The translations under genes were made by a program, and so were the position numbers. Below, piece by piece: positions 10,801 through 58,835 of a stretch of 64,000 nucleotides of DNA. Within the stretch, counting starts at the first letter, position 1; each line of letters opens with the position of its first letter. The notes below the pieces were generated by a model. It did not search any database, was not told the origin of the DNA, and saw nothing but the letters and a program-made list of their open reading frames with translations. Source of the stretch: Epinephelus fuscoguttatus (Eukaryota; Chordata; Actinopteri; Perciformes; Serranidae); contig NC_064759.1 in the NCBI RefSeq assembly GCF_011397635.1, positions 17,756,428-17,820,427 of the forward strand, in the 5' to 3' direction.

Positions 10801-13800
10801 TGATTTATATTAAAGATACTATATCGTGCCATCAAAAGTCATAGTATAGTAGGTCAGAAAGAAATGTTATATTAAATGTCATGGTATATTAAGTCATAAG
10901 GAAACTAATGAAAAAAGTTCATATAAAAAAAGTAATATAAAATGTCTTTGTATAGTATGTCATAAAATTATTGATTAAAAAGATTGTACTATAATATGTC
11001 ATAAGAAATGTAATGAAAGAAGTTGGAATATAGTAGGCCATAACAATCTTGTATAAAAAGGTCATTGTATAATATGCCATAAACATTTTGTATGAAACGT
11101 CATAATACATTATGTTGTCAAAAAATGTGATGAACGTCATAGTATAGTATGTCGTCAAAAAATGTCACCAAAAACGTCATAGTATAGTATGTTGTCAAAA
11201 ATATGATTAAAAATGTCATAGTAAAGTAGTGATGGGCAGATGAAGCTTCATGAAGCATTGAAGCTTTTCATCAAATTGGTTCACTCAAGGGCAAAGCTTC
11301 TTGATGCTTCATTTGCTCTACTAAGCCATCTACTGGACAAAAAAAGCTATTACACTTAGTGGTTTGTATATATAGATCTGAACCACTTCCCGAACCAGTC
11401 ACGTGGTACAGCCGGCCAGCAAGGCTTCGGACGTCACCAATGACATCACTCGTCTGAAACGACACAAGCCTCGATACACACATTGCGGAAACACTTCCTG
11501 GATTACTCGACACGCTTCGAAACCTCGGCACGGCAAGTCACATCACTATAGTTAAGTATGGCATCAAAAAATGTTATAAAAACATCATACTATAGTATGT
11601 CGTTAAAAATCTTATTAAAAACATAGTATAGCATGTCATTAAAAATTTCACCAAAATGTGATAGTATAGTATGTATAAAATGTCATAGTAGTATGTCGTC
11701 CAAAATGGCACCAAAATATCATAGTATGGTGGGTCGTCAAGGATGTAATGAAAATATCATAGTATAGTATTTCTTCGAAAATGTGATAAAAAATATAGTA
11801 TGTCATCAGAAATGTCTTCAAAACGTCATAGTATAGTATATCGTAAAAAATGTGACAAAAACGTCATAGTATTGTATGTCGTCAAAAATGTTAAAAAAAG
11901 AGCCATACTATAGTATGTTGTCAAAAATTTGATTTAAAACGTCATAGTATAGTATGTCGTCAAAAATGTGATTAAAAACGTCAAAATATAGTGTCGTCAA
12001 AAATATCACTAAAATGTAATGCGTGTAATCAAAAATGTCACCAAAATGTCATAGTATAGTATGTTGTCAAAAATAGGATAAAAACATCATAGTATAGTAT
12101 GTCGTCAAAAATAGGATAAAAATGTCATCATATAGTATGTCATCAAAAAAAAGATAAAACGTCATAGTACAGTATGTCATCAAAAATGTGACCAAAATGT
12201 CATAGCATATTATTTCGTCAAAAATAGGATAAAAACGTCATAGTATACTATGTCATCAAAAATGTCACCAAAATGTCATAGTATATTATTTCATCAAAAA
12301 TAGGATAAAAACGTCATAGTATACTATGTCGTCAAAAATGTCACCAAAATGTCATAGTATAGCATGTCGTCAAAAATAGAATAAAAATTTCACAGTATAG
12401 TATGTCGTCAAAAATGTCACAACAATATCATAGTATAGTATGTCGTCAAAAATAGGATAAAAACGTCATAGTATATTATGTCATCAAAAATGTGACAACA
12501 ACGTCATAGTATAGTATGCTCTTAAAAAATGGGATAAAAACGTCCTAGTATAGTATGTTGTCAAAACTGTGACAAAAATGTCATCTTATAGTATGTCGTC
12601 ATAGTATGTTGTCAGAAACAGGATAAAAACATCATAGTATAGTATGTCGTCAAAAATAGGATAAAAATGTCATAGTATAGTATGTCGTCAAAAATACGAT
12701 AAAAACGTTATAGTATAGCATGTTGTCAAAACTGTAACAAAAATGTCGTCGCATAGTATGTCGTCAAATAAAATGAGAAAAACGCCATAGTATAGTATGT
12801 CGTCAAAAATGTCATAAAAATGTTATAGTATGTCATCAAAAATTTCACAAAAACATCATAGTATAATATGTCATCAGAAATAGGATAAAAACATCATAGC
12901 ATAGCATGTCGTCAACAATTTCACCAAAATGTCATAGTATATTATGTTGTCAATGTTGAGATTAAAACATCATAGTATAGCATGTTGTCAAAATTGGAAT
13001 AAAAACGTCATAGTATAGTATGTCGTCAAAAATAGGATAAAAACGTCACAGTACAGTATGTTGTCAAAATTGGATAAAAACGTCATAGTATAGAATGGCG
13101 TCAAAATGTCACCAAATGTCATAGTATAGTATGTCGTCAAAAATTTCACCAAAATGTCACAGTATAGTATGCTGTAAATTCTGAGATTAAAACATCATAC
13201 GTAGTATAGTATGTTGTCAAAAATAGGATAAAAATGTCCTAGTATAGCGTGTCGTCACAACTGGGATAAAAGCGTCATAGTAAAGTATGTTGTCAAAAAT
13301 GTCACCAAAATGTCATAGTATAGTATGTTGTCAGTGTTGAGATTAAAACGTCATCGTATAGTATGTCGTCAAAAACAGGATAAAAATGTCATAGTATAGT
13401 ATGTCGTCAAAAATAGGATAAAAACATCATAGTATAGTATGTCGTCAAAAATAGGATAAAAACATCATAGTATAGTATGTCGTTAAAGATAGGATAAAAA
13501 TGTCATAGTATAGTATGTCGTCAAAAATGTGACAAAAACGTCATAGTATAGTATGTCGTCAAAAAAAGGATAAAAACGTCATAGCATAGCATGTCGTCAA
13601 AAATAGGATAAAAACGTCATAGTATAGCATGTCGTTAAAGATAGGATAAAAATGTCATAGTATAGTATGTCGTCAAAAACAGGATAAAAACATCATAGTA
13701 TAGTATGTCGTCAAAAATAAGATAAAAACGTCATAGTATAGCATGTCGTTAAAGATAGGATAAAAATGTCATAGTATAGTATGTCGTCAAAAATGTGACA

Positions 13801-14515
13801 AAAACGTCATAGTATAGTATGTCGTCAAAAACAGGATAAAAACGTCATAGCATAGCATGTCGTAAAAATGTCATAGTATGGTATGTCGTCAAAAATTTCA
13901 CCAAAATGTCATAGTATGTTGTCAAAATTGGAATAAAAACGTCATAGTACAGTATGTCATCAAATATAGGATAAAAACGTCAGAATACAGTATGTCGTCA
14001 AAATTGGATAAAAACGTCATAGTATATAGTATGTCGTCACAAACAGGATAAAAACGTCACAGTATAGTATGTCGTCAAAAACAGGATAAAAACGTCATAG
14101 TATAGTATGTCGTCAAAAATGTGACAAAATTGTCATAGTATAGTATGTCGTCAAACACGGGATAAAAACGTCATACTATAGTATGTCATCAAAAACAGGA
14201 TAAAACGTCATAGTGTAGTATGTCGTCAACATTGGATAAAAACGTCATAGTATAGTATGTCGTAAAAAATGTGACAAAAACGTCATGGTATAGTGTGTAG
14301 TCAAAAATTTCCGAAAAATGTCATAGTATAGTATGTCGTCAAAAATGTGACAAAAATTTCTTCGTATAGTGTTGTCAAAAATTTCACAAAAACGTTATAG
14401 TATAGTGTGTCCCCAAAAATGTGATAAACACGTCATATGTCTATGTCGTCAAAAATGTCACAAAATGTCATTGTGTAGTATGTCCTAAAACGTGTTAGAA
14501 ATCATAAGAGAGTAT
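10800..14515. repeat. 38-bp minisatellite, roughly 90-100 units
   Basis: The core unit reads TATGTCGTCAAAAATAGG followed by ATAAAAACGTCATAGTATAG, 38 bp. Successive copies of TATGTCGTCA sit at 12643 and 12681, giving the period directly. Units near the middle (12.6-14.3 kb) are nearly identical, while the left flank (10.8-11.9 kb) is degenerate. One 322-bp element interrupts the array. There is no long open frame. The array sits between the convergent 3' ends of tomm40 and the meprin-like gene. Confidence 0.95.
11227..11548. mobile_element. 322-bp element inserted in the 38-bp array
   Basis: The sequence breaks the repeat pattern completely. It begins TAGTGATGGGCAGATGAAGC and ends CACATCACTA, so short ends are inverted. 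The flanks TAGTAAAG (11219-11226) and TAGTTAAG (11549-11556) match at 7 of 8 positions, consistent with an 8-bp duplication of an array unit. It contains clustered GAAGCTTCATGAAGC-like palindromes. It is probably a non-autonomous hAT-like element that arrived after the array had formed. Confidence 0.65.
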
Positions 14516-14693: not shown

Positions 14694-14910
14694 TTTATTA
14701 GCCAGTTAAAATCAAGTTTTTTTTTCGTTTCTTTGATGGTCTACTATTTTGTAAGAAATCAAAGTACAGTTTCAACATTAGCCCAAAAAAGAAAATCCAA
14801 ATATGAACAAATATATGGTCCAAACACCACAGTAGTACAGACATTTCATTACCGCCAATACACAGCATCTACAATGAGTTCTTTACCCATTCCTTTTTTC
14901 CTTTTATTAG
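14694..14910 (-). terminator. Candidate poly(A) signals of the meprin-like gene
   Basis: On the minus strand AATAAA occurs at 14910-14905 and again at 14699-14694, with another at 14569-14564 at the edge of the minisatellite. The first gives a 3' UTR of about 150 bases after the stop at 15049. Which one is used cannot be decided from sequence alone. Confidence 0.45.
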
Positions 14911-15048
14911 TTCAAGTTTTTATTATATCCACAGAAACCACAAGAAAAGAAGAATAAAAAATAAAATCTGCTGAATTTCTCAGCCAGTGGCAGATCTTCT
15001 GGTCCTGTTCATGTGCAGAGGTGAGATGTGCCCGGGAGGAGACGTACA

Positions 15049-15127
15049 TCAAGGTATTAAAAGCATCAGTGCCAACAAGAGGGTGAGGACAGGAGAGCAC
15101 ACCAAAGCAGCAGAGGAGCCAAAAATG
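15049..15127 (-). other. Last meprin-like exon: hydrophobic C-terminal tail
   Basis: The acceptor CTGCTGCAG|C at 15128/15127 joins the donor GACAG|GTATTC at 15474/15473 exactly in phase (AG+C = Ser). It encodes about 26 residues, [19 protein letters not shown] and so on, ending LLIP-stop. Small residues (DDS, GSSA) followed by an unbroken hydrophobic run up to the stop match the general form of a GPI-attachment signal. A transmembrane anchor without cytoplasmic tail is the alternative. The exon is inferred from splice signals and phase only. Confidence 0.65.
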
Positions 15128-18100
15128 CTGCAGCAGGAGGAAAGGAATGGATTATGGAATGGATTATAGTACTTTGGAAAAGGCCCTATGACACCTCACT
15201 AAAAAGGCTGCTGTGGTTTATAGGAAAATAGTTTGTGTAGTCTGCAGGTTACTAGTAGCTGTGCGCCGATCTTACTGTTATTCTGCATTGTATTGCAATC
15301 ATATATCTACTTACTGCAGCCTTTGTTGCACTGCAGTGTTTCTATATTTTTTTTTGCTTAATATGAACATACACACCTGTTTAGCCCCAACAACATCAAA
15401 TTAAACTTTTCAAGCCCACTGTGTTCATAACTAACAGTGAGTTGCAAGTGTATGTGTGAGTAAATCTGAATACCTGTCATCTGTTGTTCTAGGTGGATGA
15501 CGGGTGATCTCTGGATGAGTGGTGATTTCTGGATGAGTCGGGGGATATTGAGGAGTGGTGTTTTCTGGATGAGTGGTGGGATGTGGATGAGTGGTAGGAT
15601 GTGGATGAGTGGTGGGATGTGGATGAGTGGTGGGATGTGGATGAGTGGTAGGATGTGGATGAGTGGTGTTTTCTGGATGAGTGGTGGGATGTGGATGAGT
15701 GGTGGGATGTGGATGAGTGGTGGGATGTGGATGAGTGGTGTTTTCTGGATGAGTGGTGGGATGTGGATGAGTGGTGATTTCTGGATGAGTGGTGGGATGT
15801 GGATGAGTGGTGCTTTCTGGATGAGTGGTGGGATGTGGATGAGTGGTGTTTTCTGGATGAGTGGTGGGATGTGGATGAGTGGTGGGATGTGGATGAGTGG
15901 TAGGATGTGGATGAGTGGTGTTTTCTGGATGAGTGGTGGGATGTGGATGAGTGGTGATTTCTGGATGAGTGGTAGGATGTGGATGAGTGGTGTTTTCTGG
16001 ATGAGTGGTGGGATGTGGATGAGTGGTGGGATGTGGATGAGTGGTGGGATGTGGATGAGTGGTAGGATGTGGATGAGTGGTGTTTTCTGGATGAGTGGTA
16101 GGATGTGGATGAGTGGTGTTTTCTGGATGAGTGGTGGGATGTGGATGAGTGGTGTTTTCTGGATGAGTGGTGGGATGTGGATGAGTGGTGATTTCTGGAT
16201 GAGTGGTAGGATGTGGATGAGTGGTGTTTTCTGGATGAGTGGTGGGATGTGGATGAGTGGTGTTTTCTGGATGAGTGGTGGGATGTGGATGAGTGGTGTT
16301 TTCTGGATGAGTGGTGGGATATGGAGTAGAAGTCATTTCTGGATGAGTAGTGGGTGATGGAGGAGTGGTGGGTACAATCCTGTAAAATGCATAGCATCAT
16401 TTGAAAGGCATATTAAAATCAAATAATTTTCATTAAGTTTTGTTTTAAAATGAGAAGTTGTTCAAGTGCTGAAAGTGTACTCAATTTGATAACACAATGT
16501 CCTACCGTGGTGAGCACGGGGCGTTATCCAGATCTTCAGGCGGATGTGTCATCATCACCGGTTCCACTTGAGGACATGGAAGAACACTTCCATTAACCAG
16601 AGGAGTAAGATCTAGCATAGGAAGGAAGTGTCAGTAATGATATACAACAAAACGTCCACTTAGGTGTACAGTAATGTTTCAAAGTTAGTTGTAGAATTCC
16701 AAGCAAAACAGTTAGACGGTTAAACAGTAAAAAAAATAAAATAGAGTAAAATAAAATATTTGCCTTGGAAGCTGAAGACAAAAACGACACTCCCTCCCTT
16801 GAGGAAGTTTCTGGTTTGTATTTCCTCAGAATCAGCAAAATAAAGTTTGCCAAGCAGAGGTCCGACAAAGATGGTCTCATTATTGTCATCTACATATGAA
16901 ATTCCAATCTCACGAGGATTGTCCCATAAATAGGTACCTGTTTACAGAAAGCATACAGAACATTCAAGATAACCGGTGAGGAGATGCTGTTACTGACTTT
17001 TCATTCAAGAGTTAATGATTTTTTAACCATTTCTTCGTGCTCTTTAAACTTACCATCATCGGATGTGCCTAGGTCAGTGGTGATACTTGCTTGTTTGGAC
17101 ATCTGCAGCTGGATATTGGGGTTCTGATCCAGCATTTGGAAGGTCACCTGCCTGTTTATGCAAGGCCACTCCAGATGGTCATCATTTTCACCAGACATCA
17201 GTTGCACAAACAGTCCAAAATATGTCCCATACAGCCCAACTCCAAATGAGTAAGCATAGCCCCCACTGGAGTAGTGCCGAGGGCTGTTTAGAATGGTTGC
17301 ATATGCACTCGTGGTCAAAAGGTTCTCAAAATCATCAATCTGCATGGTTACGTCTGGACATTCAAGTTCAGACAGATTGATGTCATCAATTGAGAAGCCG
17401 CCTGATGATGTTCCTGCTCCTCTACGAACCTCAAACTCCACCCGGAAGTGCTTGGTGGCATTCAGGGAAACATGGTGGAGCTGCCAGTGAGATGTTGGTT
17501 GACCTGGAGGGAGAGTTTTGTGATGACTGTATTACATCACTTGAATACTAATGGGTGATATATGAGGTAAAGCTTCAGTCTTAAATACTTTTAAGAGCAG
17601 ATGATAGCAGACAATCATATAACTTTACATTACCAGTGATCTGTCCCATGAGATGGAGGGTTCCCATGGGGTCCCATTCATCTTGAAACTCTCTGATCCA
17701 GATGTTCAGCTGGTCTGACTGGTTTCCGCTATGGTAGTAGTAGAACTGGAGACACTGGACATGACAATCTCTATTAGGACTCATTGTGTGGGTCTCCAGC
17801 CGGGCTGAGTCTCCCTCCATCCCGCCCGCTGTGCTAGCATGCATGAAGTAACCTGTATCTTGACCTGGAAAATTGTTGTCCGGAATGAAAGTGTTATGGC
17901 AGATCTGCATGGAAAAGGTCCCCAGCTGGTTGGGAACCATATACTGTATACAATAATGGAAGTAGCTTCTATGGACCTGTTTTGAAGCCTAGAATTCAGC
18001 CTTTCGGCCATCACTGTCTTGATTTTTTTTGGAGCCAGAAGTGAATGAATTTGGACAAGAGGATGGAACTTTGGAGCAGCGAGGGGTGGATCTGACTCTA

Positions 18101-21100
18101 GACTGTGGTAACTTCGTGCAGACAGCCGGTCACATAAAACAGCCCTGTGCTTAATTTTGTGTAACTGAAAGCATTACTAAAATGTAAATGGGTGCGTTAC
18201 ACTATATGGACAAAAGTATTTGGCCACACCTGTTAATTATTGAATTCAGGTGTATAAAATCAACCACCTCGCCATGCAGTCTCCATTTGCAAACATTTGT
18301 GATACAAAATGGGTCATTCTGAAGAGCACAGAACTCAGGAAAAGAGTTTGACACTCAGACGAGTCGACAGTCTGACGCTGGCTGATTTGTTAGTTGCTTT
18401 GAGTCATTGAGTTAGTGACATGTGGTTTAACCAGTGGCTGCTGTGCTCTTCAAGTGTGGTACTGTGATAGGATGCCGCTTTTGCGATAAGACATGCTCGT
18501 ACTCGTACTCGTTGTCCTCTGCTTATCTGGGTCCGGGTCGCGGGGGCAGCAGCCTCAGCAAAGAAGCCCAGACAGTTCTCTCCCCAGCCACTTCCGTCAG
18601 CTCTTCCGCGGGAACCCCAAGGTGTTCCCATGCCAGCTGGGTGATGTAGTCCCTCCAGCGTGTTCTGGGGCATGGACATGCCCGAAACACCTCCCAAGGG
18701 AGGCGTCTGGAAGGCATCCTTACCAGATGCCCGAACCACGTCAACTGGCTCCTCTCGATGTGGAGGAGCAGCGGCTCTACTCCGAGTCCCTCCCGGATGT
18801 CTGAGCTCCTCACCCTATCCCTAAGGCTGAGCCCAGCCACCCTGCAGCGGAAACTCATTTCAGCCGCTTGTACTCGCGATCTCATTCTTTTGGTCACTAC
18901 CCAGAGCTCGTGACCATAGGTGAGGGTTGGAATGTAGATCGACCGGTAAATTGAGAGCTTCGCTTTCTGGCTAAGCTCCCTCTTCACCACAACGGACCGG
19001 TTAAGCTCCTGCATCACTGCTGACGCCGCCCCAATCCGCCTGTCAATCTCCCGCTCCATCCTACCCTCACTTGTGAACAAGATCCTGAGATACTTAAACT
19101 CCTCCACGATAAGACGGCTTGTAAAATTTCACCCCTGCTGGATATTATTAGAAAGTGGAAGCGTTTTGTGGTCTTCCACAAAGCGGAAGACCACATAAAA
19201 TCACAGAGCGGGGTCAACGACTGCTCGGGCGCATGTTGCGTAAAAGTCGCCAACACTTTGCTGATTCCATCGCTGAAGAGTTCATGGAATGGGTTGCCAT
19301 GGCTGAGCAGCTGCATGCAAGCCTCACATCACCAGGTCCAATGCCAAATGTTGGATGGGGTGGTGTAAAGCACACCAACACTGGACTGTGGAGCAGTGGA
19401 AACGTGTTCTGTGGAGTGACGAATCACACTTCTCTGTTTGGTAGTCAGATGAATCTGGGTCTGACTGCAATGTGCCAACTGTGAAGTTTGGTGGTGGAGG
19501 GATAATGGTATGGGGCTGTTTTTCAGGGTTTGGGTTAGGCACCTTATCTCCAGTGAAGGGCAATCTTAATGCTTCAGCATACCAATACATTTTGGACAAT
19601 GCTATGCTTCCAACTTTGTGGCAACGGTTGGGGGAAGGCCCTTTTCTATTCCAACATGACTGTACCCCAGTGGTCAAAGCAAGGATTATTGATGAGTTTG
19701 GAAGAACTTGACTGACCTGCACAGAGCCCTGACCTCAACCCCATTGTGCACCTTTGGGATGAACATCAGTGCCTCACCTCATAAATGCTCTACAAAATGA
19801 ATGGGCACAAATTTCCACAGAAAAACTCCAAAATCTTGTAGAAAGCCTTTTAAGAAGTGTGGAAGCAGTTATAGCTGCAAAAGGGGGATCAACTTCATAT
19901 TAAAGTATATGTATTTGAATACAATATCATTACAGTCCCTGTCAGTATAATGGTCAGGCGTCCGAATACTTGTGTCCATATCATGTAAATTCACCCCCTG
20001 AACAGTTATCATAAATGCTGACATTAGCTGTAGAGACCAAAACCATTTTATGCACCAGGCTGTAAACATGTTTATTTCTGCTGTAAAGTTGGGCATTTTA
20101 ACATGGGGGTCTATGGGGATTGACTCGCTTCTGGAGCCAGTCTTAAGTGGGCCAATTACGGAAATGCAGGTTTTGGCACTTCAGCGTCGGCTTCATTTTT
20201 CATCCCTAGAGGTTGCTGTTTAATGGAAACAGGGAATATTGTGGTTCATGGTCAGAACCTTAACCAACAGACATGAAACCCCAAAAATTGTATTTCATTA
20301 AACTTTTTACAATAAACAACTGTAGACTTTTAACTTTAAAATTCTGAAATCTTACTATGATTAGAAGTGCCACTGGGTAGACTGGTGTGGTCAGATGTAG
20401 GACCCCCGGGAGCATGTGTTACCATTTCCCAGCCACTGCCACTCTGTGAACAGCCATTCATTTGACACATGTTCCCGTCAGAGAAGCTGCAGTGCATCAT
20501 AAATGCAATGGTTGAGTCTGTAGAGGTGAAAAAGAACACAGAAATGACTATTATTCATTGAACAGTGAAAGCATCTCAGTTTATTAAAGTCTGTAGCAGA
20601 TGAATCAGTGGATGATCTTTATAGCTGCAGTTTGAGCTTAGGTTGTCATTAATTTATTTAGACTTTTACACAAAAACCTTTTAGGAACCCCTGAACTTGC
20701 TGTGCACCACAGCCATCACAGTATAACCTTATAGTTATCCCAATTAATCAACCTTAACCAATCCCAATTATCCCAATTAGTAGACAGAGGGGTCTACAGT
20801 CTGTGTTTGAAGGATATATCCAGGATGTCAAACTGACTCAGCAGCAACAACAGGTTAAAAAGACAAAGATAGTTAGAAGCTAAAGCTGAACTATAGGCTA
20901 CAGATCACAGTGTAAAAGTGAACCACCACATCACTGCTGATCGCCACACAAGACAATGAATATAAAGGGAAACTTTGCTGATATTGAACCAGCTGTGTGG
21001 CATCGCAGTGTGTGCAGATGAAAGGTGTTTGGCTTTGCCCTCGTGCTGCTGCCAGGACCTGGGCCTCTACCGCCAAATGGGCAGGGATTCCAGGGGAAGT

Positions 21101-24100
21101 CAAACTATGACGATGACACACAGGTTGTTGAATATCAGCAAAGTTTCCCTGCTTCTCTCCACTGGTTCCTGTACAGCAGGGCCGGTCTTTTTTCACTGTT
21201 ATAATAATTAAAATGCAAAAGCAGCATGTGTATACATTCAGTAGGCTGTATCTTCAGTAGCTAGCTAGCTAACCCTACACTTTCCAGGGTTTGATTTTGG
21301 TTTTGGAACAGGGAAGAAACGTATATCTTTTTCCAACCTCTCCAGGTAACGAGTGTCATTAATACACGACGTGCCCCAGGCACAACATTTAGCTCCAAAT
21401 CCACAAAACCAGCCTGAAAATGAAGGAAATCTGAAACGATTGCATTAGAGTCAATGGAGCACAGCTGTGTTGTTGTCAGACTCAGGTCAGAGCCGGCCTG
21501 ATGCTACATTATGATTGGCCAGTCTGCGTCTGGGGGCAGGACATAGTGAAGGGTCAATTACTTTTTTAGTCACAGGAATAAACAATACTTCCAAACACTT
21601 ACTGCAGCTGTAGAGGAGGTTCAGCTCCTGAACATCACTGGGACTCATTTCCAGTCTTTGACCAATAACATCCTGGAACTCTGGGTCAATGGTGATAATT
21701 GTTGATCCATTGCCATTGCTGAATGCATCTTTGCCATAATGCATCACTGAATTGTAGTCATACGGGACTCCATGGGTGGTGCTGGTTTCATTGCTGACTT
21801 TATCAAAATTATGCTCACGACCTAGATAACACATATAAAAGCCAAACATCAATTACAGCATAATGTAGGCCTATTAAAAAATCTCAAGAGCAGCATAGGT
21901 GCTTAAAGCATAATTCACTTATCACTGTTTCAACCAGTGGTTCTCAAACTTTTTCTTAAAATAATGTACCCCCTTTGAAAAAGTTTTTCAGCCATTCAAC
22001 ATTTTTGGTAGAAAAAAATAAGCAGGTACAATTCAGCAGAGAGTCAGAGTTAGGAAACAACAACCTGAAAACACTGAAATGATACATTTAAAATGTTCAG
22101 AATCCATTACAAAATTCATGGCAAACCATTTTTTTGGAATCATGCAGTGACACTAAGAAAGCATCATAGTTTCATTAAACTGCACCCTTAAGTTGCACTT
22201 TCACTTTGGTGATATGATTGTTCTAGGAATTATGAATGATTAATATTAAAAAACAAAACAAAAAAAACAATCTCACATACCCCCTGCAGTACTCCAAAGT
22301 ACCACTAGGGCTACATGCGTACCCCTTTTCAGAATTGTTTAACATATTAATTTTGACATTAATTGACTGATTAATTTGTAAATACTCTTGATAATCCTGC
22401 TTATAGTTTAACAATTACTAAACTGATTACAGGTTAATGAACGTATTGCTGAATGAATCTATTCAAGGTCCTTCATACACCTTGATGTAACACATATAAA
22501 GAAGAGGAATATTATAATGAAAGTCTTAATGAAACCTTCTTCGATGTTCTCGTAGACAATGGTCACATGCTCATCTCTGTCATGTCTGGACTGTTCATGG
22601 TAGAAGCCAAAAGCATGGAGGAACTCATGTTCAACGGTGGAAATTTCATCACAGTACCTCCCGATGGAAAGGACCTGTCCGTTGGGTAGTACTCGGCCAA
22701 TATATGAAAAACACCTACAATGGAAAAAGCACTCATCAGTAACAGCTCATCACCTTTAAACCTTAATGTAACTGATCTGACCAGGGTCTTTATTTATCAA
22801 AGCAAACGTAGAGTGAGTTAAACATCTATGCATGAGAACTTGTTCAGTTACTTGTAGGCAAAAGTAGCAAACAACTGTCATTGGAAAACATGCAAAGTAA
22901 GAAAACCAAACGTACCCGTCTAACTTTTGGACAGAAATGTAATAGGCCTCAGAGTCCCTTGGTTTGAAGTCAATGCATGACTTTAACCTGAACTGGTTGA
23001 AGGCTCTCAGGGTGACTCCTTTGGCATTTAGCTCTTCCGTTGTTCATGGACGTTATGTTACAGGAAAGAACAAAGAAATGACAATGTAAATGTAATGCAA
23101 TTGATAATCCTGCGTGTGTGCATTATTCTGAGACTCTACTCTCACAAAATTCCTCTGTGTATGCTCAGGTGGAGGGGTGGGGTGGTTGTGTTGCACAACA
23201 GGATGGTGTGAAATGATGTTGACATGACAGTAAGCCACGTCGCTTTGTTTAAATCAATGAGCTGCTGGTTTCTTTCTCCACTGAGGGGCATTGTTATGTG
23301 GCTCCTCGCTGGTTAAAGCTTCCAGCTGATTGATGCCTATTCAACCATACTGACTGGTGTACAATCGATGTCACAAATTTCAATAGTTACGTAACATGTC
23401 CCAAAGACGTGCTCCTCCTTAAATTTAGACAGACATTATTTGTTATAAACCAGAAAAAAATATATTTACCAAGGCCATTGTCCAAAACATATGCGACTGG
23501 GGAATCCCACAGGCTGTCCACATCAGTAATGGAACTCCTTTGTATCCCTGGATTCTAAGAAGATTTATAAGAAATGTGTGGGGTGACACACACAATCACA
23601 GATACATGTTTATCATTTAAGTAATTCACTACAAACTAGTCCATACCCATTGGTAGCTTTGTCACCTTCTACCTATGCCAGTCCTCAGTGCCTATGTGCA
23701 GTTTCACATAGATTGACCACGTCAGTGAGTAGAAAAACGTGGGACAGACAGAATGACTGACTGACAGAATGACACACTGACAGTTTCCGTGATTATGTAC
23801 AACATACCATACCATGACTTAGCCTAAAACTTAGAAAAAAACCCCAAAACATTGGGCCACAGGGGGAGCCACAGCGATTGGTCACATTTTAGCCATGTTT
23901 AAGCATTTTTCTGTTGTTATAGCGCCACCCAGTTGCCACTTAGAGTTAAATTTCTCCAGTCACCTTGAGGCGCCCTGTTCTACATATCTACCAAGTTTAG
24001 TAAAAATCGATATGGTGGTTAGGCCTAGATAAGCAATTAGCTCTCTAGTGGCCCCATTTTGTTTGATGGGGTCAATAATGGAGGGGTCCCCTCAGATTAT

Positions 24101-25894
24101 GTGTGGTCATATGTCTACAAAGTTGCGTGGTGATCGGTGAAACCCTTGAGATGTTATACACCTTTATGTGATGAGCCACGCCCTCCTCAATATTTATTGC
24201 CTTATAGAAGCTCAGTTTTAGTAAGTTTTCCAACTTTTGCCAAGAGGGAACTTTAGATATTGGTCCCTAGATTATGTTCACAGAGTTTCATGCAGATCGG
24301 TCAAACTTCCTAGGAAGAGATCGATCTGAAGTGTTTTTCAAAAAATTCAAAATGGCGGAAAATCTATATAACCAGAAGTTATTGAGGCAAATTTGTTCCT
24401 CGTGAGGAGAGGCATCTCTGTGCAAAGTTTCATGACTCTACGACATACGGGGCATGAGATATGCCCATTCAAAGTTTGCAATTTCAATCGGTTGCTATAG
24501 CGCCCCCCTTTGGCCAATTGATGTAATATTGCTTCATTCGCATCCTTCCATGACCCTCTACCACTGTGCCAAATTTCACATGGATTGACCAAGTCAGTGA
24601 GAAGAAAAACGTGGAACAGACACACAGACACACACATAGACAGACAGAGTTTTCGTCATTATATAGTAAGATAAGATATGCTAAACTCACCTCCAGGATA
24701 TCATCTTCCAATGAACCATCTGTGTTTTTTTGAGCAAAAAAATTAATAACTAATAGTTCACAACACTGTGAAGCCACAACAAAGCTGCTCGGCCAAACAA
24801 AACACAAAACACTCTCACCACATGAACTATTTAATGATACAAAGATTGTTGTCCTCACTCTTGTTTGCTGTTATAATGTCCTTGTCTTCACCAATATCTA
24901 CAAAAAAACAGATGAGATGCTGCCTTATAATGATACATTGATTAAATACCAATAATTGAGTTGAATTAATTTTATGAAACAAAATTAATGTTAAATAATG
25001 CAACTTACTCTTTATGAGTGCTCCATTCTGAAAAAACAAACAAACAAACAAACAGATTTATTGCATCAACATATAGCAATGTAATTCTCAGATATACAAC
25101 ATGAAATATGATGAATGGCATGGTAAATGGACGGCACTTGTATAGCGCCTTTGTTGTCATATGACCTCTCAAAGTGCTTTTTATACTACGAATCACATTC
25201 ACACACCGGTGGCCGAGGCCGCCATACAAGGTACCACTTGCCACTTGTGAGTGCCAACACACTCACATACCAATGGAAAAGCCATCAGGAGCAAACTGGG
25301 GTTCAGTATCTTGCTCAAGGATACTTTGACATGCGGACTGGAGGAACCGGGGATCAAACTGCTGATTAGTGGACAACAACCTCTTCACATGATTGCATGA
25401 TTGCATTTCTGTGCTACGCTGGTCTAAAATGAAAATGTACACAATTTGAAGTCAGGCGGCCTCAAAGCTCATGATTCTGAAGTTTTTCAAATGTGTCATA
25501 AAGTCCAATTTTCCATCAAAATAAATACTTTGTTATTCATTCATTAAATTTAAGGTAATAAAAAGTACTTAAGAAAATGTGAAATTTGTAGCATTAAATA
25601 CGTCATAATTTATGCTGGTCTAAAAGGAAAATGTACTCAATTTGAAGTCAGACCGCCTCATAGCTCATGATTCTGAGGTTTTTCAAATGTGTCTTAAAGT
25701 CCAATTGTCCACCAAAATAAATACTTTGTTATCCATTCATTCAATTTTAGGTAATTAAAACACCTAAGAAAATGTGTAGGATAAAATACGTCATAATTTG
25801 ACAGAAAGCAAAACAGTAAAGTCACTCTTACTGGGTTTGGGGAGAATGCTGCTGAAACTGCCAAGTTCACAACAAGGAAAATGCAGCCTTTCAT
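15049..25894 (-). CDS. Meprin-like astacin metalloprotease with repeat-encoded mucin stalk
   Basis: A secreted or membrane-tethered zinc endopeptidase of the meprin family. Fifteen coding exons close in phase (952 residues): 25894-25832, 25027-25009, 24897-24859, 24719-24691, 23554-23470, 23033-22916, 22714-22536, 21821-21603, 20517-20356, 17864-17634, 17503-17054, 16937-16764, 16611-16506, 16379-15474 and 15127-15049. The signal peptide is at 1-16. In the pro-part, LEDD (44-47) stands where meprins have the FxGD aspartate switch, and activation after QR (55-56) is plausible. The astacin domain is at 57-253 with zinc motif [12 protein letters not shown] (147-158) and Met-turn SVMHY. MAM spans about 260-430 and MATH about 432-590. 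A Thr/Pro/His repeat stalk follows at about 629-926, then a hydrophobic tail. There is no EGF module, no basic stop-transfer and no cytoplasmic tail, unlike classical meprins. The exon ending at 16764 has a GC donor. Alpha or beta type is undecided. Confidence 0.88.
15500..16345 (-). repeat. Coding 18-bp minisatellite: about 45 hexapeptide repeats
   Basis: This array lies inside the 906-base exon of the meprin-like gene. Read on the minus strand in the gene's frame, it gives 42 clear units of TTHPHP or TTHPEN (rarely TTHPEI or TTHPES) and about three degenerate ones. Twelve TTHPEN units create the N-glycosylation sequon N-T-T, and every unit offers threonines for O-glycosylation. Because 18 is a multiple of 3, unit gain or loss keeps the frame. 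Both strands therefore stay open, which produces a false frame on the plus strand. Confidence 0.9.
18200..19985 (+). mobile_element. Decayed Tc1/mariner transposon
   Basis: The left end CACTATATGGACAAAAGTAT is preceded by TA (18198-18199). The right end is an inverted relative (ATACTTGTGTCCATATCATG) followed by TA (19986-19987). Frame fragments on the plus strand (19168-19711, for example [16 protein letters not shown] and [15 protein letters not shown]) are Tc1 transposase, broken by frameshifts and missing parts. A LINE fragment has been inserted at 18493-19106. The element sits in the meprin-like intron between 17864 and 20356 and is antisense to that gene. Confidence 0.9.
18493..19106 (-). 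mobile_element. 5'-truncated LINE inserted into the Tc1 element
   Basis: The minus strand encodes the C-terminal part of a non-LTR reverse-transcriptase polyprotein ([20 protein letters not shown], then [20 protein letters not shown]). Its 3' end is a short hexanucleotide tail of CGAGTA type. A perfect 9-bp target duplication CGATAAGAC lies at 18484-18492 and 19107-19115. The frame is close to intact across about 190 codons, which suggests a fairly recent insertion. It is the same family as the copy at 31513-32688. Confidence 0.85.
23690..24665. repeat. Interspersed repeat with two related ends
   Basis: Two related blocks, near 23700-23800 and 24565-24660, share TTTCACATGGATTGACCA, CGTCAGTGAG and AACGTGG with runs of CAGACAGA. 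The stretch between contains the A-TAGCGCC-ACC type phrases frequent in fish repeats. It fills the intron between the 29-base exon (24691) and the exon starting at 23554. No coding frame was recognised. The class is uncertain. Confidence 0.5.
25115..25805. repeat. Interspersed repeat followed by a 196-bp tandem duplication
   Basis: The part from 25115 to about 25380 (GTAAATGGACGGCACTTGTA, then TAGCGCCTTT) is a common fish interspersed repeat. After it, a unit starting GCTGGTCTAAAA is present at 25418 and again at 25614, giving a period of 196 bp. The two copies are nearly identical apart from small changes. Both lie in the first coding intron of the meprin-like gene. Confidence 0.65.
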
Positions 25895-40955: not shown

Positions 40956-42271
40956 TTAGTTGCCTTTGACAAAGGACTGGTAGAGGGACATCAACTGGGC
41001 CTGGAGGTCCTGAGCGTAGGGGTCCAGCTTTTCCCTCAGGTCCTCAGCGTAGGGGGCCACCATCTGTTTCACCAGATTGGCTCTCTGACTCAGCTCAACC
41101 TGGACCTTCTTGGTCAGGGGGGCCACACTTTCCTGGAAGTCCTGCAGGTGCTGGTCCACCTTCTGCTTCAGGTCATCGGTGTAGGGCCCCAGCTGAGATT
41201 GCAGGTCCTTCACACTCTGCTCCAGGCTGGTCTTCAGCTCCTCGCTCTTCAGTATCAGGGTGGTCCTCAGGGCCTCAGAGTCCACGGATTCTGCGTAGGG
41301 GGCCAGCTCCTGTTTGAGCTGCTCCACCCTCTGCTGGATCTGGGCCTTCATGTCCTCGGTGTAGGGCTCCAGCTTGTCCTTGACGGTGCTCAGCTCCTCG
41401 GTCAGCATGCTTCTTAGCATGTCAGCCTCTGAGCTGATCTTGGTCATCAGATCCTGGGCTGCAGGGGGAAGCTGCTTCTGCAGGGTGACTGCATACTTGC
41501 TGGCTATGTCGGTGCTGTCTGCCAAGCGGGCACTAGAAGATAAACAAAGAAATGGTCAGATAATCAGAGGTTTGACTAAACCCATAGGGATCTTTATCAC
41601 CATGTAACACATGTCACTATAACCCTATTCACAGTCCTGCGTGTCACACAACTTACTTGACTTCCTGTCCAAACTGTGATTTCCTGATCATCTGGAGGGT
41701 GTCATCCGCTGTTTGGGTGGCTTTGGCAATGTAGTCCCAGAAAGCATCAGTCAGCACTTCCAGCTGTGGCTTGGGTGCATCGGCATAGAAGAGGTTGGCA
41801 TGACAGCCTGTTGGATTAACAGGAGAACAGGTTGAGAACAGTGATTTTTAGCAATTCAGTTCATTCTGACTGCTCTAAGTTGCTCAGTAGGGCTGGGAAA
41901 TATATCGATATTATATTGATATCATGATATGAGACTGAATATCATCTTAGATTTTGGATATCATAATATCTGTGTTGACTTTTCCCGAATTTAAGGGCTG
42001 TAGTACAGTAAAGAGGTGTTCCAGCTGTTCTGTTATTTGCCTTTACAGCCATATTACTGCTGATTATTTTTCATAAATCTCTTTATTTAAACATTTTGTG
42101 AAAGCACAGATAGTCAACACTACAATCCTGTCCCAATATAGATATTGGTGTGATGTTTGATTTAGTCCATATTGCCCAGTAGAAGAGTAGAAAAACACTC
42201 AGAAATCCAAAACAAAAAGCTTGCAACTTACCAGACAGCACTGCAACGGCTAGTACAACGAACACCTTCAT
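40956..42271 (-). CDS. apoa4b: Apolipoprotein A-IV-like, copy 1
   Basis: A secreted exchangeable apolipoprotein that coats lipoprotein particles. Three coding exons, 42271-42232, 41807-41657 and 41532-40956, give 255 residues. The start MKVFVVLAVAVLSGCHA is a signal peptide. The mature N-terminus NLFYADAPKPQLEVLTDAFW is that of fish apoA-IV. The large exon encodes 11/22-residue amphipathic helices marked by proline: LEPYTEDM, LAPYAESVD, LGPYTDDL, VAPYAEDL and LDPYAQDLQ. Length and intron phases (1, 2) are the same as in the plus-strand copy at 47837, with roughly 70% identity by eye and no gaps. An untranslated first exon (about 42432-42388) and a TATA box precede it. ApoA-I is less likely because of the N-terminus and lack of its propeptide. 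Which fish apoa4b copy it is cannot be told. Confidence 0.9.
41889..42181. mobile_element. MITE in the apoA-IV copy 1 intron
   Basis: The left end TAGGGCTGGGAAATATATCG and the inverted right end (CCATATTGCCCAG) match the well-known fish class with TAGGGCTGGGCAATAT ends. The interior contains repeated GATAT/ATATC palindromes. The last bases of the right end seem lost. It separates the signal-peptide exon from the next exon. The plus-strand paralogue has only a 129-bp intron here. Confidence 0.65.
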
Positions 42272-47836: not shown

Positions 47837-48855
47837 ATGAAGGTCCTTGCTGTGCTCGTCCTAGCCGTTTTCAGTGGTGAGCATGTTCTTTTTTTGGAGC
47901 TTGAAAAAGTATCTACTGATATGATCAAGATAAATAACTGAACCTTAAATCAGGCTGTTATGCATGGCTGAAACATTTCTAACTGCTTTTGTGTCTATCC
48001 AAAAGGCTGTCATGCCGACCTTTTCTATGCTGATGCACCCAAGCCACAGCTGGAAGTGCTGACTGATGCCTTCTGGGACTATGTTGCCAAGGCCACCCAG
48101 ACAGCTGATGACACCCTCCAGATAATCAAGAAGTCTCAGTTGGGACAGGATATCAGGTAGGTCCAACAAGACCATGGTGATTATTGTCGGCATGCTTATG
48201 ATGTTAAAATAAACAGTGGTAACTGACATGCAATCACTCCTGACAATGAACTAAAGACAAACTCATTCTCTTGTCTAGTGCCAGTCTGACAGAAGGTGCT
48301 GAAGTGGCCAACAAGTACGCACTCAGCCTCCAGGAGCAGATTTCCCCTGCAGCCCAGGACCTGATCACCAAAGTCACCGCAGAGACTGAAGTGCTGAGAG
48401 AGCGCATGAAGCAGGAGCTGAGCACCGTCAAGGACAGGCTGCAGCCCTACACCGACGACATGACAGCCCAGATCCAGCAGAGAGTGGAGCAGCTCAAACA
48501 GGAGTTGGTCCCCTACACAGAAACCGTGGACTCTGAAGCCCTGAGGACCGCCTTGATGCAGAGAAGCGAGGAGCTGAAGACCAGCCTGGAGCAGACTCTG
48601 AAGGACCTGCAGACTCAGCTGGGGCCCTACACTGATGACATGCAGGTGAAAGTGGACCAGCACCTGCAAGACTTCAAGGAGAAGGTTATGCCCCTGACCG
48701 AGAAGGTCCAAGGCGAGCTGGCTCAGAGAGCCCATCAGGTGAGAGAAATGGCTGCCCCCTATGTTGATGAGGTGAGGGGAAGGCTAGACCCCTATGCTCA
48801 GGACCTCCAGAGCCAGCTCACCTCCCTCTACGAGTCCTTCGCCAAAACCAACTAA
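47837..48855 (+). CDS. apoa4b: Apolipoprotein A-IV-like, copy 2
   Basis: A secreted lipid-binding apolipoprotein, paralogue of the gene at 40956-42271 and in opposite orientation. Three coding exons, 47837-47876, 48006-48156 and 48279-48855, give 255 residues. The signal peptide is MKVLAVLVLAVFSGCHA. The mature start DLFYADAPKPQLEVLTDAFW is almost the same as in copy 1. Proline-marked helices include LQPYTDDM, LVPYTETVD, LGPYTDDM, AAPYVDEV and LDPYAQDLQ. The codons are strongly G/C at third positions, and the frame on the opposite strand is a shadow. The introns are very compact (129 and 122 bases). It is likely expressed in intestine, liver or yolk syncytial layer, as known for fish apoA-IV. 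No premature stop or lost splice site is seen. Confidence 0.93.
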
Positions 48856-57661: not shown

Positions 57662-58835
57662 ATGCAGGCTGTTGCTTTGATCCTTGCTTTGGCAGTCATC
57701 ACAGGTAAGTGCACTACTGATAGAAGACTAACATTAACTATTTTTATCAAATCTGATGTCTAACCACTTCACATGTTCCCACAATAGGCTGCAATGCCCG
57801 TGCTGTGCGCCAGGCTGATGCCACCCCAAGCTGGGAGGACAGCGTAAACCGCTTCTGGCAGCATGTGGCTGACCTGAACGACAAAGTCGAGGGAGCTGTG
57901 AAAGACCTCAAGGCCTCTCAGCTCAGCAGGGAGCTAGAGTAAGTGAACTTCATCATCCTCTTGTCGACTTTTCAGTGAGCTTTACTTCCACGTCTTCTCT
58001 TTCCTAGTTTATACATTTGTCTCTGATTTCCAAATCTTGTCCTCCCTGGCCTCTCGGTATGCTTACATTTGCCCTCATGTCTGATCATCTTGTTTTCCTG
58101 CTTCCAGGACTCTGATCAATGACAGCATGGCAGAGCTGACAGCATACAGAGATGACATCCAGACCAAGCTGGCCCCCTACACTGATGCCTCCACCGGCCA
58201 GCTGTCTCAGGACCTGCAGCTCCTGGCCAACAGGCTCCAGAAGGACATGGTCGACGCCAAGGAGCGCAGCACCGAGTATCTGGGTGAGCTCAAGACCATG
58301 GTGGAGCAGAACAGCGACGACGTCCACGGCCGCATCACCACCTACACCAACAAGCTGAAGAAGCGCCTGAACAAGGACACAGAAGAGATCCGCAAGTAAG
58401 TTTTGCGGAGGCTTGTGCACTTTTAAATCTTTCTTGTCTTTGTTAATATGAACTCTAAATGTCTTTTTCTTCTACCCCCCTCACTTCAGCACTGTGGCCA
58501 CCTACCTGGGTGAGCTCCAGTCCCGCACCACCCAGAACCTGGATGCTGTGAGGGGACAGGTTGAGCCCTACGTCCAGCAGGCCAGTGAAACCGCCAACCA
58601 GAAGCTGAGTGACATTTCAGCCCTGCTCATGACCCAGGCTGAGGGCTTGGGCCAGCAGCTGGAAGTTCAGGCTGAGAGCATCAAGACCCAGCTGGAGGCC
58701 ACCGCCCAGGACCTGCGCACCTCCCTGGAAGGCAAGATCGACGAGCTGACACAGATGCTCTCCCCCTACGCCACTCAGTTCCGTGAGCAGATTGAGAACG
58801 TCATGGATAAGGTCAAGGAGACCACCACTTCTTAA
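57662..58835 (+). CDS. apoeb: Apolipoprotein E (fish apoEb type)
   Basis: A secreted lipid-transport protein and ligand of LDL-receptor family members. Four coding exons, 57662-57704, 57788-57938, 58108-58395 and 58490-58835, give 275 residues. The signal peptide is MQAVALILALAVITGCNA, followed by RAVRQAD. The 22-residue helices carry proline marks: LAPYTDAS, VEPYVQQA and LSPYATQF. The basic helix KLKKRLNKDTEEIR starting at residue 147 corresponds to the LDL-receptor/heparin-binding segment of mammalian apoE, which is what separates it from apoA-I and apoA-IV. The extra intron in the repeat region, absent in the apoA-IV genes here, also fits fish apoE genes. An untranslated first exon lies at about 57365-57387, with a second 5' UTR part at 57643-57661. 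All exon phases match and there are no signs of decay. Confidence 0.94.

Follow-up and report, generated by a model that had tools for sequence, protein, structure and literature searches.

How is a meprin-type protease held at the cell surface if its gene runs, after the MATH domain, through a long minisatellite exon and ends in a short exon coding solely for a hydrophobic tail? Mammalian meprins carry an EGF domain and a transmembrane helix with a short tail. The reach of a meprin depends on whether it is membrane-bound or secreted. The gene lies in the window, by which we mean the whole stretch of 64,000 nucleotides analyzed here (C8:17756428-17820427 of the 1.047-Gb assembly of Epinephelus fuscoguttatus). 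We consider it probable that it encodes a divergent meprin with a rebuilt C-terminal module, in which a repeat stalk and a GPI-attachment signal stand in place of EGF, transmembrane helix and cytosolic tail. As read from the sequence, the protease is of a known kind and what differs is the stalk plus the GPI-type end.

The gene model, joined by splice signals and homology, comprises 15 exons on the minus strand from 25894 to 15049 in a single 953-codon frame with 13 GT and one GC donors and 14 AG acceptors, and the gene appears intact. Its product consists, in this order, of a signal peptide, astacin, MAM and MATH domains, the part encoded by the repeat exon and the hydrophobic tail. Exon 1 (25832..25894) contains the start codon and the signal peptide, the latter recognized by eye, and exons 2 (25009..25027), 3 (24859..24897) and 4 (24691..24719) encode propeptide, with LEDDI of exon 4 aligning roughly with human FEGDI. 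The propeptide ends and astacin starts in exon 5 (23470..23554), also placed by alignment with the human protein, and astacin continues through exon 6 (22916..23033), exon 7 with the zinc site (22536..22714) and exon 8 with the Met-turn and the S1' arginine (21603..21821), the last two supported by Pfam and the human alignment. MAM is encoded by exons 9 (20356..20517) and 10 (17634..17864) and ends in exon 11 (17054..17503), which also holds the first part of MATH, exons 10 and 11 both resting on the gene model and Pfam; exon 12 (16764..16937) continues MATH and has the GC donor (AAG/GCAAAT). Splice sites were scored with a rough matrix, by which the acceptor of exon 6 (32nd percentile, boundary set by homology), the donor of exon 7 (52nd) and the acceptors of exons 4 (71st) and 10 (79th) are poor. 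Intron 1 harbors a tandem duplication (25418-25776, period 196 bp, 1.8 copies, 90% match). Within intron 9 (18526-19708) an apparent reverse transcriptase-type ORF fragment on the minus strand and an apparent Tc1-like transposase fragment on the plus strand were noted by eye; Pfam assigned neither fragment to a family.

The initial annotation took the product for a meprin-type protease, which the domain searches confirm. Pfam places astacin at residues 66-251 (PF01400, 210 bits), MAM at 260-431 (PF00629, 113 bits) and MATH at 434-539 (PF22486, MATH_2, 39.5 bits; PF21355, 35.9 bits), and among solved structures human meprin beta (4gwm) is the top match with 508 bits over residues 30-606, compared with 373 bits for meprin alpha. 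The zinc motif HExxHxxGxxH, the Met-turn SVMHY and the S1' arginine (IGQR) are intact and align with those of human meprin beta, which suggests that the predicted enzyme is probably active. A preference of meprins for acidic residues is ascribed to the S1' arginine in the available text of Marin 2015 (PMC4545420); as this arginine is kept, the predicted preference should persist. Of the components by which Marin defines a meprin, the astacin domain with zinc motif and Met-turn is present, as is a single MAM followed by MATH, and the place of a transmembrane region near the C-terminus is taken by a terminal hydrophobic segment followed by one residue and no lysine or arginine. By this definition (astacin, MAM, MATH and transmembrane region) the predicted protein is a meprin in everything except the anchor.

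The eight cysteines forming the four intramolecular disulfides of the human protein (four astacin cysteines and two MAM pairs) are kept. The inter-subunit Cys305 of the human enzyme is missing, since GQC(305)QG lies opposite TSNHSQDTG, a cysteine-free stretch encoded in exon 9. According to the available text of PMC8197800, Cys305 joins two subunits of human meprin beta, so that covalent dimerization in the human manner is unlikely. Beside this loss, the MAM domain has two extra cysteines, Cys273 (exon 9) and Cys338 (exon 10), which might possibly form a replacement disulfide.

Sequence comparisons lead us to class the gene, tentatively, as a divergent meprin that is closer to beta than it is to alpha. 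The MATH domain is 37% identical to that of human beta, 32% to that of human alpha and 28-36% to those of six paralogs of the same genome (C10_a left out (N), C21 partial), and scores 104.5 bits against human beta and 73.5 bits against human alpha. The whole-ectodomain scores given above also favor beta, whereas the best MATH matches in the own genome are alpha-like copies on C11 (71 and 56 bits), followed by the C15 copy of MEP1B (42 bits). In a MATH tree the protein sits on a long branch of 1.5 changes per column with no supported place. This long branch, together with the missing Cys305 and the lack of an EGF domain, is what would be expected of a decaying meprin copy whose divergence and odd end result from relaxed constraint; given the intact 953-codon frame over 15 exons, the conserved catalytic motifs and the eight kept disulfide cysteines, we regard such decay as very improbable. 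Tandem meprin copies next door were rejected, because a tblastn search with the 625-residue ectodomain over 264 kb, reaching 100 kb to either side, returned the window gene alone. The neighborhood contains three ORFs of the apolipoprotein A1/A4/E type (Pfam PF01442) at 40959-41555 (minus strand, 180 bits), 48250-48852 (plus strand, 173 bits) and 58085-58396 (plus strand, 97 bits), a Pfam-supported piece of trypsin about 63 kb below the window and, about 6 kb below it, a helicase piece with weak Pfam support (DEAD, 21.2 bits compared with a cut-off of 26). These neighbors differ from TRAPPC8, RNF125 and RNF138, the neighbors of MEP1B in the available text of PMC4545420.

After MATH, exon 13 (16506..16611, minus strand, phase 1 to 2) encodes a linker, DLTPLVNG...CSPR, in the slot of the exon for linker and first EGF half of MEP1B. 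It is followed by exon 14 (15474..16379, minus strand, phase 2 to 2), whose 906 bp equal 302 codons and encode a 301-residue stalk (residues 626-926). The coordinates and lengths given by the initial annotation for an exon consisting almost wholly of an 18-bp repeat are right. Tandem Repeats Finder reports an array at 15512-16372 with a period of 36, i.e. twice the 18-bp unit, 23.9 copies, 90% match, 0% indels and a score of 1062. The array translates into 44 in-frame TTHPxx units, 26 of them TTHPHP and 11 (by peptide split) or 12 (by codons) TTHPEN. The stalk consists of 33% Thr, 27% Pro and 24% His (98 Thr and 72 His, but only 3 Ser), with 26 HPHP motifs, 12 N-glycosylation sequons and 21 acidic compared with 2 basic residues. 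Among the 44 units, which were chosen by starting with TTHP so that changes in these four residues, as occur in units at the edges, are left out, variation consists of a single ACT replacing ACC in codon 1 and otherwise falls into codon 5 (CAT, GAA or GAG) and codon 6 (CCC, AAC, CCT, ATC, ATG or AGC). This is too little variation for a selection test.

The argument that the frame runs unbroken through the array is weaker than it appears. The array is indeed open in the coding frame, but as all three sense frames are open, an open frame says nothing about coding, and we rejected it as proof. Evidence that exon 14 is an exon comes instead from its splice context, its phases and its non-repeat edges, which are rich in Thr, Pro and His in the same frame. 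If the array were a non-coding intronic minisatellite, the mRNA would join exon 13 to exon 15 or end otherwise. The triviality of the open frame, the symmetry of exon 14 and a large 38-bp satellite just downstream (11794-14484) are compatible with this. However, the array is flanked by a fair acceptor (92nd percentile) and a modest donor (90th percentile, rough score), and its diverged edges keep the Thr/Pro/His-rich frame. Moreover, all 45 gaps between its 46 CATCCA motifs measure 18 or 36 bases, and its indel rate of 0% compares with 4% in the older-looking satellite, so that a non-coding array seems rather unlikely. The symmetry of exon 14 (phase 2-2) also means that skipping keeps the frame, and transcripts devoid of exon 14 are therefore compatible with the anchor. 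The satellite itself has 71 copies with 77% match and starts just downstream of the poly(A) signals.

A genome-wide search for exact matches to one TTHPHP pattern listed 81 matches, of which 26 lie in the array and the rest are scattered; the reversed control gave 75. Further TTHPHP arrays in the genome were rejected on this ground. Eight of the scattered matches, exact copies of ACCACCCACCCTCATCC, occur at C17:38878459-38956963 within 80 kb at distances of 5-17 kb and perhaps belong to a tandem gene family.

Across the last intron (15128..15473, minus strand), exon 14 splices in phase to exon 15 (15127-15049), which spans 79 bp including the stop codon (phase 2 to stop) and encodes solely the hydrophobic tail, just as had been claimed. 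By the rough score the acceptor of exon 15 ranks at the 99.9th percentile of all AGs on the minus strand of the window. Between 15473 and 14950 five acceptors reach at least the 80th percentile; that of exon 15 scores highest, and no other gives a hydrophobic tail. Of the acceptors having a pyrimidine tract, 4 of 332 on the minus strand (exon 15 itself included) and 9 of 369 on the plus strand lead into a GPI-like tail, as do 201 of 30,656 in shuffled sequence, i.e. an overall chance rate of 0.7-2.4%. This splice setting, with the best acceptor in phase and a kind of tail that is rare, supports exon 15. One mRNA is predicted to carry both exon 14 and exon 15. Two AATAAA poly(A) signals (14903..14924, minus strand, first bases 14924 and 14908) follow the final base of the stop codon at distances of 125 and 141 bases.

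If exon 15 were rarely used, if the last intron were retained, upon which the frame ends in another short tail, or if the stalk were cut, the protein would be mainly secreted. The donor of exon 14 (CAGGTATTC, 90th percentile) is modest, ends without a transmembrane segment occur in three of seven paralogs (C11_A, C10_a and C10_b), and, according to the available text of PMC4545420, cleavage and secretion are the rule for meprin alpha. Against predominant secretion stand the strength of the exon 15 acceptor, which is the strongest locally, and the lack of poly(A) signals (AATAAA or ATTAAA) within the last intron; below the array such a signal first occurs at 14924, past exon 15. We consider a mainly secreted protein unlikely.

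With regard to the anchor itself, the proposed tether by GPI or by a tail without cytosolic part is borne out in its chemistry, and GPI as such is the likely, predicted form of attachment. GPI-type tails were called with a home-made rule. The rule looks for small omega residues, a short spacer, a hydrophobic end and no cytosolic tail, all of which the exon 15 end shows. Among eight C-termini (without the seventh paralog, C10_a) the exon 15 tail was the only one to pass; the ends of six paralogs and the end with the retained intron failed. After its best 19-residue hydrophobic segment only one residue follows and no lysine or arginine, whereas the transmembrane segments of four paralogs are followed by 4-33 residues including 2-7 lysines or arginines. 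Small residues before a hydrophobic end fit GPI attachment sites. Here DDS, GSS, SSA and SAA lie 20-27 residues from the protein end, and D925, G930, S931 and S932 are candidate omega residues of the probable signal. An uncleaved membrane helix on the same stalk, making the protein type I without a cytosolic part or only loosely held, would agree with the hydrophobicity of the end, which equals that of the paralog transmembrane segments (best 19-residue mean 2.63 compared with 2.23-2.84). The lack of basic stop-transfer residues after the segment and the fit of the small residues to GPI sites by the rule used make such a helix improbable. We rejected the idea that exon 15 derives from the transmembrane exon of a paralog, as in four tries the alignment was no better than shuffles (79, 296, 725 and 878 of 1000 shuffles scored equally well).

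The view that the stalk occupies the place of EGF agrees with the searches for the domains expected there. Pfam found no EGF in the tail, the query omitting the central part of the array. As the EGF domain is split over two exons in two paralogs, a whole-EGF pattern for one exon is blind to it, and patterns for the half-exons were used instead; they recovered both known split EGFs of the two paralogs. The scan of the minus strand extended from 16505 to a point 100 kb below the window and found no second half of EGF. The first-half pattern gave three chance-like matches in 116 kb, none of which looks like EGF. Transmembrane segments with basic residues were likewise absent downstream on the minus strand of the window part. 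A continuation into EGF and transmembrane exons on this strand was rejected by the split-EGF scan. In the available text of PMC4545420, EGF is undetected in about 22% of meprins, mostly of fish. Since EGF loss is common in fish meprins, the unusual part of the protein is its stalk and GPI-type tail.

The paralogs of the same genome allow the architecture to be placed. A MATH search gave 14 matches, three from the window gene and 11 from seven other genes (two on C11, A and B; one on C15; three on C10, a, b and c; one on C21). Eight meprin genes are a lower bound, and the paralog ends were mostly read by eye. Protease and MAM exons were found near all seven paralogs, within about 23 kb; the other matches were further astacins. 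Astacin-type clusters lie at C2:11.1-12.2 Mb, C2:42.2 Mb and C4:43.65-43.68 Mb, with several hits that cover two or more exons of the window gene in one stretch, and are perhaps hatching-enzyme-like. EGF is kept in two of the seven paralogs and a transmembrane segment in four. The C15 copy (MEP1B) ends with a Thr/Pro linker, EGF, transmembrane segment and basic tail, C11_B with EGF, transmembrane segment and KRAQ, and C10_c and C21 with a transmembrane segment and basic tail but no EGF. C10_a and C10_b (C10:34543983-34547433) have short ends without a transmembrane segment, and C11_A (C11:39905009-39908329) stops 16 codons into the exon after MATH. Pfam scores EGF at 22.3 bits in C11_B (cut-off 21.5), at 19.5 bits and hence below the cut-off in C15, and not at all in the window tail and C21. 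C-terminal remodeling is thus frequent among the meprins of this genome. A stalk or GPI-type end occurs in none of the seven paralogs, and the lineage-specific architecture suggested earlier may hold, the comparison covering this one genome.

The last exons of the C15 gene run from phase 1 to 2 (linker and first EGF half, 193 bp) and from phase 2 to the stop (second EGF half, transmembrane segment and cytosolic tail), and the printed junctions of C11_B agree. Exons 13 and 15 have just these phases and so fill both of the older slots, and exon 14 (phase 2-2) was evidently added between them. The linker of C15 is short and carries TTQPPPS twice at the place of the stalk. Thr/Pro repeats therefore occur here without an array, although their sequence differs.

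We propose that the extra phase 2-2 exon grew by tandem duplication of the 18-bp unit and set the 301-residue Thr/Pro/His stalk between MATH and the membrane, the last exon acting as a GPI-attachment signal that replaced EGF, transmembrane helix and cytosolic tail. The enzyme would be secreted as a zymogen, with the propeptide removed by a trypsin-like cut. GPI would tether it to the outer leaflet, most probably on the apical face of an epithelium. There it would be carried at the tip of a stiff arm bearing O-glycans and in part N-glycans, the glycosylated brush of the initial annotation, and might cleave proteins of the mucus layer or of neighboring cells before acidic residues.

The most peculiar feature is the richness in histidine. 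One could imagine that the His-Pro stalk of the GPI-anchored metalloprotease is functional as an arm responding to zinc and pH. With a weak negative charge around neutral pH, it would be able to keep zinc close to the catalytic domain; acid would make it strongly positive, so that it stretches and sticks to anionic mucus. Reach and activity would then follow luminal pH, with the repeat number tuning them between individuals, and the enzyme, devoid of Cys305, would act from a tether in a raft, either as a monomer or as a loosely paired dimer, a mode not met for meprins in the papers examined. We offer this as a rather doubtful idea.

Four or five C-terminal designs exist among the eight meprin genes: EGF with transmembrane segment and long tail, EGF with transmembrane segment and four-residue tail, a transmembrane segment without EGF, no transmembrane segment, and a repeat stalk with GPI-type end. 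The membrane module is hence evolutionarily labile, and the body of protease, MAM and MATH is kept. The genome also offers a natural test of the effect of stalk length and anchor type on proteases at the cell surface. In it one can see how a coding minisatellite gives rise to a stalk. In the open-licence literature, titles and abstract starts among the matches listed contained no description of a GPI-anchored meprin; no paper was found there for TTHPHP or for a fish meprin expansion with mucin and intestine, and the listed matches for astacin with GPI-anchored and mucin-like concern sand flies only. The terms GPI, glycosylphosphatidylinositol, mucin and threonine-rich do not occur in PMC9848320.

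Compared with meprin beta (human MEP1B, PDB 4gwm/7aq1, and the C15 copy), the predicted protein has the same order of signal, propeptide, astacin, MAM and MATH, and zinc site, Met-turn, S1' arginine and the C-terminal exon phases of C15 are common to both. It differs by the lack of EGF, transmembrane segment with cytosolic tail and Cys305, and by the possession of the 301-residue repeat stalk, the GPI-type end and the extra Cys273 and Cys338. Surface proteases anchored by GPI include MT4- and MT6-MMP, prostasin and testisin. They share with the protein a catalytic ectodomain on GPI, but belong to other protease families and have no long repeat stalk. Histidine-rich glycoprotein, with its HHPHG units, also has a His-Pro tandem repeat, but it is a plasma protein without a protease domain, and no homology is claimed. 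Mucin-type coding minisatellites likewise encode Thr/Pro repeat stalks, which here contain 24% His and hardly any Ser and lie behind a protease. Meprin-F (Marin 2015, PMC4545420), compared by its description in the available text, is like the window protein an extra, divergent meprin of bony fish, the window protein being nearer to beta by whole-ectodomain score; we do not assign the window protein to meprin-F. That description includes neither a repeat stalk nor a GPI end, and the window gene, unlike meprin-F, stands without a tandem copy within 100 kb on either side.
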